Shown one piece after another: positions 50,191-53,343 of a stretch of DNA of 64,000 bases. The position numbers were made by a program, and so were the translations under genes. Below the pieces are notes generated by a model, which was not told the DNA's origin, made no database searches, and saw only the letters and a list, made by a program, of their open reading frames with translations. The stretch's first letter is position 1; each line of letters begins with the position of its first letter. This DNA comes from an uncultured Elusimicrobiales bacterium (GTDB lineage Bacteria > Elusimicrobiota > Elusimicrobia > Elusimicrobiales > Elusimicrobiaceae), in contig CALUVB010000001.1 of NCBI GenBank assembly GCA_944324115.1, forward strand, positions 124,001 to 188,000. Reading direction: 5' to 3'.

Positions 50191-50348
50191 ATTGGCGCGC
50201 ACAATGCTGTTTCCGTCAGGGAACCTTACACTTGCACCGCTATAGAGCAAACTTGTCCGCCATTCTCCTACAATACGGCCTTGGACGGCAGATTGGCGCA
50301 AATGTTTTCAAAATACTCCTTATAGCCGTTTTTGTAAAACGCTCCACA

Positions 50349-50489
50349 TTATAAATTTATCCACTGAGTACACGCTTGATATAATTCCCGCGTACTAGTA
50401 TAGCCTTTTACCGGCAAACGGTTTAGCACCGCCCGGCGCTGTTGCTCCATTTGGTCCAAAAACTGCACTAACTGCGAATAAACATTCAT
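50349..50489 (-). pseudogene. 46-codon ORF, truncated homologue of the AAA N-domain
   Basis: ATG 50489 has a perfect AGGAGG 6 nt upstream and follows the AAA gene by 9 nt. The ORF (MNVYSQLVQFLDQMEQQ...GYTSTRELYQACTQWINL) ends at TAA 50349-50351. The same frame continues with CGAFYKNGYKEYFENICANL to a TAG at 50268. YTSxxEL-x4-TxW before the stop, and CG...F..ICA.L after it, both match residues 13-50 of the AAA protein, so homology crosses the stop. This is either a nonsense-truncated gene or a short functional remnant. Confidence 0.65.
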
Positions 50490-50498
50490 TATGTCCTC

Positions 50499-51872
50499 CT
50501 ATAAGCAAACTTTTACGGTTTGCTGTAAAAATTGTTCTTGAAACAATTGCCCTACTTGCTGCTGCAATCCTCTCGCTCCCAAACGCCGCTCATAAGCCCG
50601 ATTGACCATTTCTTCCACCATTTCCGGCCGAATAATGGCAGTTGACAGATGCAACAGCTTCTTATATTGGCTAATAGGGCCATTGTACGGATTTAATAAA
50701 ATACGGCGTAAATCTTCCTTTTCTAGCGGTCTTAACTGCACAAAATAAGAAAATCTTCCGATAAATTCCGGCAGCATTCCATACCCGATGTAATCATCGG
50801 CCGACAAGGGCTCTTGTCGTACAGCGGCTGCCTGTGTAAAACCGACGGATTTATCCGCGTGTTTTACCTGTAAGTTTTCAAAAGCACCGCCTACTACAAA
50901 GAGCACTTTGGAAAGGTCCCACTCGTCTGTTTTGTGGGTAAGGGGATCTTCGGTCATAAAGAGCCTGCTTTCTATCATGCGCAACAGTTCTGCCTGTACA
51001 TTCCCCGAGGAAACGCCCCAGCGCTCGCTTCCTTCTCGCAGTTTGTCAATTTCATCTATAAACACAATAGAAAGCGGCAGCTTTTTATCATTTGCCAACA
51101 ACTGCAAGGGTTGTAGCATATTGCCAACACTCATACCGGTATAGCCCGCCTGCGTGTATTGGGAAGCATCCGCGTGGACAAACGGAAGTTTTAAAATCTG
51201 CGCTAAGGACTGGCATAAATAGGTTTTTCCGCAACCCGTCGGGCCGCTGATAAAAATATTGTTTTTGGTGAAGGACTCCCGGGGGCTTTGGGCGCATTTG
51301 GCTAAATGCTCAAATACTCCTGCGACCACTTGTCTTTTGGCGTTTTCCTGCCCGATAACGTATTTGTTCAGTTCAGTCAGTACGCGCTGGGCGCTGAAAG
51401 TGCGCCGGGCAGTACAAGCTGCCTTGAGGGGCGGAGGGGCCAAGAGCGGATTTTTCTTAATATCTACCAAGCCGCCAGATAAAACCAAAATCTTTTTGCT
51501 GAAAAGCACGCTTTTCCCTTCAAAAAGAGTTTCCAATACTTCTTTAGAGGAGGCGAATGTTTGCGCCGTTTGCAATAGGGCTGTTACCTTGCAAGTAGAC
51601 GGCGTAATAATCCGCAATAACTGTGAGATGGCCAAAAACAGCAGTAAAAACAGTTCCGTATCATTTAAGTTGTATTGTTGCACCAAAGCAGCCATAGGCA
51701 CTTTTTTGCCATTGGTTTTTTTCAGCCGGGCGCAAATTTCCTTAAACAGTTCCACGCACTCGGCTTGGCGTATTGCCACGCCGCATTTTGCGTGCCAGCG
51801 GGTTAATTGTTCAATCAACTCCGTGCGGGAAGTATATTTTTTAATCTTTGTATTCTTATTTGTATTTGTCAT
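50499..51872 (-). CDS. ClpX-like AAA+ unfoldase with a non-zinc N-terminal domain
   Basis: The product is 457 residues from ATG 51872 (AAGGA upstream). ClpX-type motifs are Walker A GPTGCGKT (210-217), pore loop QAGYTGMSV (ClpX has EAGYVGEDV), Walker B IVFIDEIDKL (269-278), GGAFENL, then SVGFT where ClpX has its ClpP-docking IGF, Arg finger LPEFIGRF (368-375) and sensor 2 RRLGARGL (429-436). The ClpX zinc domain is replaced by about 150 residues of helical sequence (YTSRTELIEQLTRWHAK...) of unknown family. It is probably an ATP-driven unfoldase with its own adaptor domain. It is controlled by a WYL regulator and a SAM-type riboswitch. Confidence 0.88.
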   Translation of the reverse strand: MTNTNKNTKIKKYTSRTELIEQLTRWHAKCGVAIRQAECVELFKEICARLKKTNGKKVPMAALVQQYNLNDTELFLLLFLAISQLLRIITPSTCKVTALLQTAQTFASSKEVLETLFEGKSVLFSKKILVLSGGLVDIKKNPLLAPPPLKAACTARRTFSAQRVLTELNKYVIGQENAKRQVVAGVFEHLAKCAQSPRESFTKNNIFISGPTGCGKTYLCQSLAQILKLPFVHADASQYTQAGYTGMSVGNMLQPLQLLANDKKLPLSIVFIDEIDKLREGSERWGVSSGNVQAELLRMIESRLFMTEDPLTHKTDEWDLSKVLFVVGGAFENLQVKHADKSVGFTQAAAVRQEPLSADDYIGYGMLPEFIGRFSYFVQLRPLEKEDLRRILLNPYNGPISQYKKLLHLSTAIIRPEMVEEMVNRAYERRLGARGLQQQVGQLFQEQFLQQTVKVCL

Positions 51873-51882
51873 ATTTATTTCC

Positions 51883-52029
51883 TTATGCACCCTGATAAAT
51901 GTTCCAATCGTTATAGCCAGATTCTTCCTGCAGAGGTTTTTTCACCCTCCAACACCCCTCCTCTGCCACCCACATGCGGCGGCTGGGATAAAATTTTGTT
52001 TCTTTGTAAGTCTGTGTTCTTTTTGCCAT
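51883..52029 (-). CDS. 48-residue protein, first gene of the AAA operon
   Basis: The 49-codon ORF starts at ATG 52029 (MAKRTQTYKETKFYPSRRMW) and ends at TAA 51883, 10 nt before the AAA gene. It is basic at the start, aromatic-rich (five Tyr/Phe and three Trp) and has one Cys; it contains GYNDWNIYQG near the end. AGAGAGG lies 6 nt before the ATG but is in the 3' arm of a strong hairpin. No family was recognised. Its position suggests an adaptor or substrate of the AAA protein; that is inference. Confidence 0.6.
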   Translation of the reverse strand: MAKRTQTYKETKFYPSRRMWVAEEGCWRVKKPLQEESGYNDWNIYQGA

Positions 52030-52066
52030 AAAAAACCTCTCTTTGGGTCTGTCCCATTAGAGAGGT
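52030..52066 (-). promoter_or_regulatory. Second leader hairpin that buries the ribosome-binding site
   Basis: ACCTCTCT (52066-52059) pairs perfectly with AGAGAGGT (52042-52035), with an inner TGGG/CCCA, and is followed by TTTTT and then ATG 52029. It can act as a terminator or hide the AGAGAGG Shine-Dalgarno sequence. Confidence 0.75.
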
Positions 52067-52068
52067 GG

Positions 52069-52100
52069 AAAAAAAGAACCCATCGTCTCCAATGGGTTCT
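52069..52100 (-). terminator. Riboswitch terminator (T1)
   Basis: AGAACCCAT (52100-52092) / ATGGGTTCT (52083-52075) is extended by TG/CG to a GAGA tetraloop and followed by seven T. The 5' arm CCCATTG can instead pair with CGATGGG (52131-52125) in the aptamer P4 loop, a built-in antiterminator. Confidence 0.85.
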
Positions 52101-52103
52101 ACT

Positions 52104-52205
52104 CACAATAAAACGCTTGCAGTTCCCATCGTTCAAGCATTAGCACCTTACCCTTAGGCAGGTTGCTGTGTAGTCGTCGGGCTTGTCCCTCGTACACTCT
52201 ATATG
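52104..52205 (-). promoter_or_regulatory. SAM-I-like riboswitch aptamer
   Basis: The minus strand carries GAGGGAC-N2-GCCCGACGA (52191-52174), GCAACC (52166-52161) and AAGGTGCTAA (52149-52140), the conserved S-box core. P2 GTGTA/TACAC, P3 TGCC/GGTA, P4 TGCTTG/CAAGCG and a bulged P1 CATATAGA/TTTTATTGTG all form. SAM-I riboswitches normally switch off methionine genes when SAM is high; here the downstream genes are a 48-aa protein and a ClpX-like AAA protein. Confidence 0.82.
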
Positions 52206-52327
52206 GATCTAGACGGTATTTTCTGGAAGCCCCAATCCCTGTTTTTTCACCAGCTTTGAGAGTTATACAAGCTGTTCTTTTTTTCTAGGAATTGGTAGAT
52301 GGATAGTAAAACTACCTATCTTCCTTC

Positions 52328-52341
52328 AAATAACGTTATTT
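52328..52341. repeat. 14-bp perfect palindrome in the AAA leader
   Basis: AAATAACGTTATTT lies about 50 nt after the predicted transcription start and before the riboswitch. Its role is unknown. Confidence 0.4.
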
Positions 52342-52357
52342 ATAAAATAATAAAAAC

Positions 52358-52371
52358 GACATTTTAATGTC
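52358..52371. promoter_or_regulatory. Operator copy B, downstream of the AAA promoter
   Basis: GACATTTTAATGTC, arms GACAT/ATGTC, lies about +16 to +29 relative to the predicted start. It is the same palindrome as at 52439 and is close to 53330. Confidence 0.75.
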
Positions 52372-52393
52372 TTTTTATCTTTTTTATAATAAA

Positions 52394-52422
52394 ATTATAG
52401 CATGAAAAGGCCCTTTTGTCAA
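52394..52422 (-). promoter_or_regulatory. Consensus promoter of the AAA operon
   Basis: TTGACA (52422-52417), a 17-bp spacer and TATAAT (52399-52394) match the sigma-70 consensus perfectly. The predicted start near 52387 gives a leader of about 358 nt. The operators on both sides imply tight repression. Confidence 0.9.
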
Positions 52423-52438
52423 CCAAGTGCCATTTTGC

Positions 52439-52452
52439 GACATATTAATGTC
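52439..52452. promoter_or_regulatory. Operator copy A, upstream of the AAA promoter
   Basis: GACATATTAATGTC, arms GACAT/ATGTC. Its centre is 81 bp from copy B, so DNA looping by one regulator is possible. Confidence 0.75.
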
Positions 52453-52526
52453 ATTTTTTTGTTTTATGTGAGATTTTATAGCTGTTTCCGGCACTAGTTA
52501 AGGGGTAAAAGGCTAGCGTTTCCGGT

Positions 52527-53309
52527 TTATTTGCCAGGGGCAGACTCCGGAGCCGGTGGGTTCTGTATGGGGCAAGTCAGGGGCTCGGCTGGTAAAGATT
52601 GGGTAACTGCTGAAGTTTGTGGGGTGAGTTCTTGGACCCACTGATGAGCGCGCTGCCAAATGGCCCATTTTACAAAGGGAATCGGCCGAAACTGGGCATA
52701 TCCGGTGGAGGTAGCTTGGTCCTCCCGCAAGGAGAAGTTGCTTATGTTTTCCAAGGCATAGCAAGAGATTTCCCGCTTGCTGCTTACGCTAACCACATGC
52801 CATTTATCATAAAGACGCAGAATAATATAGGGGTATAATGTGCGGTTTTTTTTACAATCCTTTAGATATACGCGCACAAGACAGTGGTATTTGATACATT
52901 TTAAAAGCGTAATGGCCCGTTCGTCTGTTTCAGCAAAATCGTATTTAGTAGCGCCAAATATACAATGTTCAAAAGAAGGCGGCACAAAGCGTTGGGCGAT
53001 TTGAGCCGCTATAGGGGAGAAAGCGCCCCCTAGTTGCTGTGAAATATCGGCTGCCAGAATGAGCAGGCTTGCTTCTTCGGCGGACAGGTTTGCAGCCGCC
53101 AAAGAAAAACCAGGTGCCAGCATATATACGCTTTGCCGGGGGGAAATAACCGGAAATTGCGCCTGCATAAGCAGTTCCATATCGCGCTGTATGGTGCGTA
53201 TAGATACATGAAACTGCTTGGCTAAGTCCGTTACAGAGACAGGTGTTTTTTCCAGCAGAGACAGGATTTCCGCAATACGTTTTGTTTTTCCTGTGATTTC
53301 TTTAGACAT
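52527..53309 (-). CDS. WYL-domain HTH transcriptional regulator
   Basis: The 260-residue protein has an N-terminal winged helix (KRIAEILSLLEKTPVSVTDL; VSIRTIQRDMELL, about residues 8-60). A WYL-type ligand-binding domain follows (YPYIILRLYDKWHVVSVSSK near 160-180, with KWH in place of the WYL triad), and the tail is proline-rich. WYL regulators respond to nucleic acids or nucleotides; several (BrxR/CapW) repress phage-defence operons. GACAT palindromes at its own promoter and around the next promoter point to autoregulation and control of the AAA operon. Confidence 0.85.
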   Translation of the reverse strand: MSKEITGKTKRIAEILSLLEKTPVSVTDLAKQFHVSIRTIQRDMELLMQAQFPVISPRQSVYMLAPGFSLAAANLSAEEASLLILAADISQQLGGAFSPIAAQIAQRFVPPSFEHCIFGATKYDFAETDERAITLLKCIKYHCLVRVYLKDCKKNRTLYPYIILRLYDKWHVVSVSSKREISCYALENISNFSLREDQATSTGYAQFRPIPFVKWAIWQRAHQWVQELTPQTSAVTQSLPAEPLTCPIQNPPAPESAPGK

Positions 53310-53315
53310 ATTGTT

Positions 53316-53343
53316 ATTCTACAAAAAAAGACATTTTTGTGTC
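53316..53343 (-). promoter_or_regulatory. WYL gene promoter with operator copy C
   Basis: TAGAAT (53321-53316), AACAAT, ATG is the leaderless type. GACATTTTTGTGTC (53330-53343) overlaps the spacer and -35 region. This operator copy is imperfect, with one mismatch between its arms. Confidence 0.6.

Follow-up and report, generated by a model that had tools for sequence, protein, structure and literature searches.

A WYL- and SAM-I-associated operon encoding a ClpX-like unfoldase in a bacterial family with small genomes

The window, i.e. the whole 64-kb stretch of DNA analysed here, carries an operon for a ClpX-like AAA+ unfoldase whose transcription is probably gated by a WYL regulator and by low SAM, and whose likeliest use would be as an accessory device for stress or defence. 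Regulation of methionine metabolism is the textbook role of SAM-I riboswitches and, as SAM riboswitches are known for the control of methionine genes, the presence of one before an unfoldase operon is unexpected. In a comparison set of 90 genomes of this bacterial family, which has small genomes, the full-length AAA gene was found in 17, all 17 of them with a SAM-I 0.2–0.36 kb upstream. The order leader, small ORF and AAA gene, for which a sequence-only reading of the window had suggested a synteny check, is kept in these relatives.

The same reading had proposed a SAM-I-like aptamer and suggested a search with SAM-clan models. RF00162 indeed matches positions 52123–52209 of the minus strand with 56 bits (E 3e-10), the Rfam gathering score being 44.4 bits. 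Covariation in homologues, also proposed as a check, is found as well: across 34 loci, 97.3 % of cells are paired and 8 pairs have changed two-sidedly, a level that none of 500 shuffles equalled. It backs helices P1–P3 and the P2–J3/4 pseudoknot, the latter being 100 % paired with two-sided changes. Judged by sequence, this segment is a genuine SAM-I aptamer. It is the single SAM-I of the window's genome and, as metK of this genome carries none, the AAA operon is its sole SAM-I output.

Like other members of the SAM-I (S-box) family, the element combines the aptamer fold and pseudoknot with an expression platform of the terminator type. The intrinsic terminator (52075–52100, minus strand; 11 bp and a U run, fold z = -5.3) has a 5' arm, CCCAU, with an alternative partner, AUGGG, in the 3' strand of aptamer P1. 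According to this layout and to known SAM-I logic, bound SAM would let P1 keep the AUGGG strand, so that the terminator forms and the hairpin at the Shine-Dalgarno (SD) sequence stays shut, whereas scarce SAM would free AUGGG to pair with the CCCAU arm and the operon would be read. This hairpin (52035–52066, minus strand; fold z -3.9), absent from the sequence-only reading, has as its 3' arm AGAGAGG, the SD sequence of a 48-aa ORF; an equivalent hairpin with covarying arms occurs at nearly all SAM-I loci. Two long-range pairings of its 5' arm were submitted to a between-locus swap test, which gave no preference for the P1 5' strand (643/1292) and a weak one for the terminator 5' arm (681/1210; AAA loci 95/144); neither is therefore claimed. 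Control at the SD sequence is also displayed by the dual-function SAM-I of Xanthomonas campestris, which controls a met operon and senses initiator tRNA (PMC7270179); in contrast, the leader described here precedes an unfoldase operon and places terminator and SD hairpin in series.

The promoter, previously read as a perfect TTGACA-17-TATAAT, matches 12/12 consensus positions at 52422–52394 of the minus strand, with a TG before the -10 box, and its position agrees with a leader of about 358 nt. Relatives carry equivalent promoters. Both flanking GACAT-N4-ATGTC palindromes are exact, one lying 5' of the -35 box (52439–52452) and the other 3' of the -10 box (52358–52371), and the third, located 21 bp 5' of the start codon of the WYL gene (53330–53343), has one mismatch. 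Palindromes are also found 34–35 bp 5' of the WYL start in L071, L075 and L076. At one mismatch or less, the 64 kb contain 4 occurrences of the motif, 0.83 being expected, and 0 shuffles reached 4. The regulator (260 aa, 52527–53309, minus strand) is probably a WYL-type HTH protein, as the first reading had it: it matches HTH_11 (E 4.6e-9) and the PADLOC WYL model (65.5 bits, E 1.3e-18 over residues 8–199), the Pfam WYL family being unlisted at E 0.1.

A WYL gene lies 5' of the leader in 13/17 AAA loci; being absent from the other four, it is dispensable. GACAY-N4-RTGTC operators are present in 13/13 loci with a WYL gene and in 0/4 without. This co-occurrence supports, but does not prove, recognition of the GACAT palindromes by the WYL protein, and suggests that a WYL repressor occupies the two palindromes flanking the strong promoter. 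The transcript would then traverse a new structured RNA domain before reaching the SAM-I aptamer. This layout, together with SAM-I usually acting as an OFF switch, would imply an AND gate combining the WYL signal with low SAM.

The additional domain, which the earlier reading had not spotted, covers about 133 nt directly abutting SAM-I (52210–52342, minus strand; fold z -2.8). Its consensus structure, derived from 13 sequences, shows compensatory change in 9/26 pairs, and it has no Rfam match. It is found at 13/17 AAA loci and nowhere else in the 90 genomes, and a strict pattern retrieved none from viral contigs. As it is missing from 4/17 loci, it is dispensable. In the WYL loci that carry it, the two operators are spaced by 81–82 bp. 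A leader combining SAM-I with another structured RNA domain is also known from the tandem SAM-I and AdoCbl riboswitches of Bacillus clausii metE (reviewed in PMC2258182), but the second domain here is an undescribed one, lies directly against SAM-I and is devoid of an expression platform of its own.

The ClpX-like AAA+ protein announced from the sequence is indeed encoded by the operon. This unfoldase (457 aa, 50499–51872, minus strand) shares with ClpX the AAA+ core, Walker motifs, pore loop and arginine finger but stays far under the equivalog cut-offs (174.5 versus 370.75 and 201.6 versus 359 bits for TIGR00382 / NF003745, the latter score being with NCBIfam ClpX). Walker A/B, the GYxG pore loop, PE-GR and GARGL are conserved across 15 aligned orthologues, all of which display the Walker A/B, pore loop, arginine finger and sensor 2 features of ClpX. 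A [VI]GF tripeptide (VGF or IGF) found in 15/15 orthologues, VGF in the window's protein, aligns to the IGF of the ClpP-docking loop, although the IGF-loop insertion is shorter than that of ClpX. The zinc-binding N-domain of ClpX is replaced by a non-zinc helical domain common to a partner protein; the Pfam matches listed for the unfoldase all lie within the AAA part and include no zinc-finger family that would indicate an N-terminal C4 zinc domain. The full-length model has a middling pLDDT of 72 and is weak around the VGF loop. No canonical ClpX above cut-off was found in any of the 90 genomes, and the window's genome has ClpP, encoded at C23:28104–28676, but no ClpX. The product would be a hexameric unfoldase that retains the ClpP-docking motif of ClpX with its zinc domain exchanged for another N-domain. 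It could dock on ClpP and, when SAM or methionine is depleted, might deliver new substrates to the ClpP of the host.

The 48-aa protein predicted ahead of the AAA gene corresponds to an ORF at 51883–52029 (minus strand), and most AAA loci have a related ORF with the C-terminus GY(N/S)DW(D/N/E)IY, its counterpart being broken or divergent in L063, L065, L068, L069 and L074. Behind the AAA gene, the truncated N-domain homologue also stands: hhalign relates the 46-aa ORF 50349–50489 to the AAA N-domain (96.6 %, E 4.8e-10). This ORF was rejected as a real short protein, for it forms the beginning of a broken gene that encodes an intact 170-aa free N-domain protein in relatives. The remnant (50289–50489, minus strand; 82 % identity over 67 codons) has an in-frame stop at codon 47, and homology stops at about 50289. 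With a pLDDT of 86.5, the model of the free N-domain protein matches no PDB structure at E <= 0.001, the best prob being 0.10.

The window copy had been taken for the whole system, a view that must be abandoned, since the operon of relatives runs on with the N-domain homologue, a LemA-like protein and a TPR membrane protein. The LemA-like gene is present in 12/90 genomes, in 11 of these within the AAA operon; it is gone from the window's genome and missing at five other AAA loci too. By comparison with relatives, what the window carries is a truncated derivative, the unfoldase of which is intact. In fuller copies, the unfoldase may act with the free N-domain, LemA-like and TPR membrane proteins and, because these copies pair it with membrane proteins, its substrates are probably located at or near the membrane. 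With the membrane part lost and the partner gene broken, the window copy may have a reduced mode of action or be decaying. That it is already a decaying remnant without function is nevertheless quite improbable: the stopped and cut-off partner gene and the loss of the LemA-like gene would fit such a state, but the AAA frame is intact with all motifs and a dN/dS of about 0.1 versus close relatives, promoter, operators and riboswitch are all intact, and the LemA-like gene is equally lacking at the five other AAA loci.

The LemA-like gene of L074 (8754–9251) matches phrog_1383 (E 2.8e-30) and has no Pfam match, hence none to PF04011; the record of a phage homologue itself annotates LemA pfam04011. 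Homologues of the LemA-like and membrane genes (phrog_1383 and phrog_2087) form an adjacent pair in the large phages PTm1, pT24 and MT837876. Megaphages hold such a pair together with ClpX-type genes, three genes apart in Lak phages. Unlike the phage pair, the bacterial pair lies behind AAA and N-domain genes downstream of SAM-I, and its membrane protein is extended by a TPR region. No LemA-like or TPR gene was found beside 160 ClpX-like genes taken from public contigs of bacteria and viruses, a LemA family search of viral contigs retrieved nothing, and the TPR protein has no plasmid match.

The AAA loci are patchily distributed, with different neighbours in nearly every genome, and the AAA protein of G015 is 73 % identical to that of G077, from another genus, versus 56 % to that of the window. 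The AAA operon is probably shared horizontally. Near-identical SAM-I leaders precede other, unrelated accessory genes of the family, and one lies on a viral contig, where its neighbours are an integrase and a DNA adenine methyltransferase. These near-identical aptamers, the viral leader and the megaphage genes would fit a regulatory cassette that travels with accessory genes of a phage- or plasmid-like kind, the AAA operon being one cargo, selfish or moron. This is rather unlikely, as no integrase, repeats or target duplication are tied to the AAA loci. An empty-site comparison turned up no closely related empty site: the relatives that carry the neighbouring acyltransferase have DNA identity of about 70 % and nothing in common beyond that gene, and so do not mark the boundaries of the insertion.

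Published SAM-I regulons consist of methionine and cysteine metabolism and transport (PMC3766115). By contrast, no recognisable methionine or SAM gene lies downstream of any of the 35 SAM-I matches of the window and the rest of the family. SAM-I usually signals how well a cell is supplied with SAM and methionine (PMC3766115, PMC2258182) and in this genome, whose metK lacks one, there is no SAM-I output besides the operon, so methionine or SAM starvation might induce the unfoldase to recycle or remodel proteins with ClpP, no phage being involved. This possibility deserves consideration but is not favoured, because one would not expect to find a core starvation response in only 17/90 related species, and no metabolic role is recognisable for the accessory genes that make up the other SAM-I targets of the family.

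WYL regulators are frequent guards of defence loci, and one heads this operon. Together with the patchy spread, changing neighbours and crossing of genera (G015/G077), the partner genes common to large phages and the look-alike leader on the viral contig, this circumstantial basis makes a role against phages or mobile elements plausible, if somewhat doubtful. Infection would strip SAM (SAM lyase, DNA hypermethylation) and make the WYL signal, and the unfoldase would kill or clear the infected cell. However, no PADLOC system was matched, the matches being confined to the generic WYL model and partial AAA ones, of which DolB is the best: the AAA+ similarity to Dodola DolB (E 2e-8) extends over 118 residues, no match reaches DolB length and no gene was recognised as the partner in a described system. 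Moreover, no defence island was identified around the locus, and the phage-shared genes are equally compatible with phage-to-host transfer. A literature search yielded no paper combining a SAM riboswitch with anti-phage function, and searches for the WYL domain or Elusimicrobi- with riboswitch gave only matches unrelated by title and abstract.

More speculatively, and with rather low probability, the 133-nt domain would be a new class of ligand- or protein-sensing RNA that forms a three-input gate with SAM-I and the WYL operators, and the lineage would have repurposed SAM-I, otherwise a methionine switch, as a low-SAM alarm for a whole set of accessory (defence-like) genes, including the sole ClpX-like unfoldase of ClpX-less cells. 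A lineage with every SAM-I ahead of accessory genes would be an example of a metabolite riboswitch put to new use as an alarm, and such use would link SAM depletion to conditional proteolysis. The RNA domain beside SAM-I offers a concrete candidate for a new class of regulatory RNA, while the operon lends functional context to the LemA-like/membrane pairs of megaphages, otherwise of unknown function.

The regulatory architecture of the AAA operon, which includes a WYL regulator gene, operators around the promoter and a structured RNA leader, is real and conserved, as indicated by sequence, conservation, covariation and co-occurrence. All the elements named in the sequence-only reading are found at the positions that it assigned in the window, which belongs to a genome of 1.53 Mb. 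Indeed, the aptamer described there as SAM-I-like is an Rfam match (52123-52209(-), 56 bits), and the perfect TTGACA-17-TATAAT promoter is flanked by two exact GACAT-N4-ATGTC palindromes, the third one, located before the regulator gene, carrying one mismatch. The product of this gene (52527-53309(-)), considered as a WYL/HTH regulator, matches HTH_11 and the PADLOC WYL model. The predicted ClpX-like product (50499-51872(-)) is a 457-aa protein closest to ClpX, yet far under the equivalog cut-offs, and the proposed truncated N-domain homologue is a 46-aa ORF homologous to the N-domain of the AAA protein itself (profile comparison, 96.6 %).

Full-length AAA orthologues were found in 17 of the 90 genomes of the family, including that of the window, and a SAM-I aptamer lies about 0.2-0.36 kb upstream of the AAA gene in all 17. 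Over 34 SAM-I loci, 97 % of the cells are paired, the pseudoknot covaries and eight pairs show two-sided changes, a number reached by none of 500 shuffles. The CCCAU arm of the terminator has two alternative partners, the 3' arm of the terminator and AUGGG of P1. This is the usual layout of an OFF switch, and the leader would respond to SAM. In nearly all loci, a hairpin located between the terminator and the start codon buries the Shine-Dalgarno sequence. Further alternative pairings tested in the leader received no support.

The palindrome GACRY-N4-RYGTC, searched with at most one mismatch, is found near the promoter in each of the 13 examined loci that have a WYL gene, and is missing from the four loci devoid of this gene. 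Ten loci carry two copies around the promoter, spaced by 81-82 bp, and four an additional copy upstream of the regulator gene; the WYL protein probably represses the operon. A structured RNA domain of about 133 nt (52210-52342(-)), without match in Rfam, immediately adjoins the SAM-I aptamer. With a covariance model derived from six sequences, the domain was detected at 13 of the 17 AAA loci and at no other place in the 90 genomes. RNAalifold recovers the same helices from the 13 sequences, 9 of the 26 pairs showing compensatory changes; this evidence for the structure is good but not final, because all the sequences come from one genus and were aligned by fitting to the model. Two leaders (loci L070 and L072) harbour this domain and lack both WYL gene and operators; three loci (L064, L074 and L081) carry a WYL gene with one operator-like site and lack the domain.

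The AAA orthologues form two groups (about 73-92 % and 66-89 % identity within groups, about 50-57 % between them), the protein of locus L069 being intermediate (61-63 % identity to the first group). One group crosses two genera: the protein of G015, a genome of the window's genus, shares 73 % identity with that of G077, from another genus, versus 56 % with that of the window. Furthermore, the genes surrounding the operon vary between genomes. Because of this distribution, the cross-genus group and the varying neighbours, the operon has the appearance of an accessory operon shared horizontally. Neither mobility genes nor boundaries were identified at the AAA loci. In two genomes, a 76-aa piece of a second AAA copy precedes the intact operon by about 3 kb (G046:C48:5853-6047 and G050:C6:29594-29788), which suggests repeated gain and decay.

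In relatives, the gene order is leader, small ORF, AAA gene, gene of a 170-aa N-domain homologue, in some cases a lipoprotein gene, LemA-like gene and gene of a TPR membrane protein, some copies lacking one or more of these genes. Of the 90 genomes, 12 have the LemA-like gene, in 11 cases within the AAA operon. It is absent from the window genome, where codon 47 of the N-domain gene is an in-frame stop (homology stops at 50289) and the AAA gene is intact, with a dN/dS near 0.1 relative to its closest relatives. The LemA-like and TPR proteins correspond to phrog_1383 and phrog_2087, whose genes are neighbours in Tenacibaculum phages PTm1 and pT24 and in MT837876. In the Lak megaphages MK250026.1 and MK250016.1 (L315, L318), the same strand bears a LemA-like gene and, three genes upstream of it, a ClpX-type gene with zinc-domain sequence; the two families are paired there independently.

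SAM-I regulons described in the literature concern methionine/cysteine metabolism and transport (PMC3766115, PMC2258182). Searching the family yielded 35 SAM-I matches. Those outside the AAA operon lie ahead of genes for a degenerate DnaA-like protein bearing a zinc ribbon, for the N-domain homologue together with a DUF6876 protein, for ankyrin-repeat proteins and for small unknown proteins. In locus L267, from a genome of another family of the order, an N-formylglutamate amidohydrolase gene follows the aptamer. No recognisable methionine gene was found among the targets in the family or in L267, and metK of the window genome has no SAM-I. The DnaA-like proteins (up to about 340 aa; L084, L085, L090, L094, L096 and L097) have a degenerate ATPase domain (Bac_DnaA, E 0.013), in which no intact P-loop was seen, and a C-terminal zinc ribbon that stands alone in L083 and L265. 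An aptamer nearly identical to those of the bacterial accessory loci (L331:1415-1498(+)) is carried, in phage or flanking host DNA, by the 34.7-kb IMG/VR viral contig IMGVR_UViG_3300001598_000126, where it precedes a gene encoding a 203-aa protein without Pfam match and lies near genes for a phage integrase, tail morphogenesis and a D12 DNA adenine methyltransferase. In L268 (G115:C73), a weak SAM-I-like match under threshold (31 bits) precedes genes for an AAA ATPase, a vWA/metallopeptidase-like protein and a protein resembling, by eye, SAM synthetase.

The AAA protein retains all the AAA+ motifs of ClpX and lacks its zinc domain; in each of the 15 orthologues aligned, the ClpP-docking tripeptide reads VGF or IGF. 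Since no canonical ClpX exceeds the cut-off in any of the 90 genomes, and since the only other ClpX-like proteins in these genomes are two more distant ones with other N-domains (G045:C8:6580-7803, L077; G042:C287, L078), the operon is the source of the sole ClpX-like unfoldase of the window genome. ClpP is present in this genome, and the unfoldase may work through it. The literature search found no earlier description of this regulatory architecture, and the operon that it controls may act in stress response or defence.
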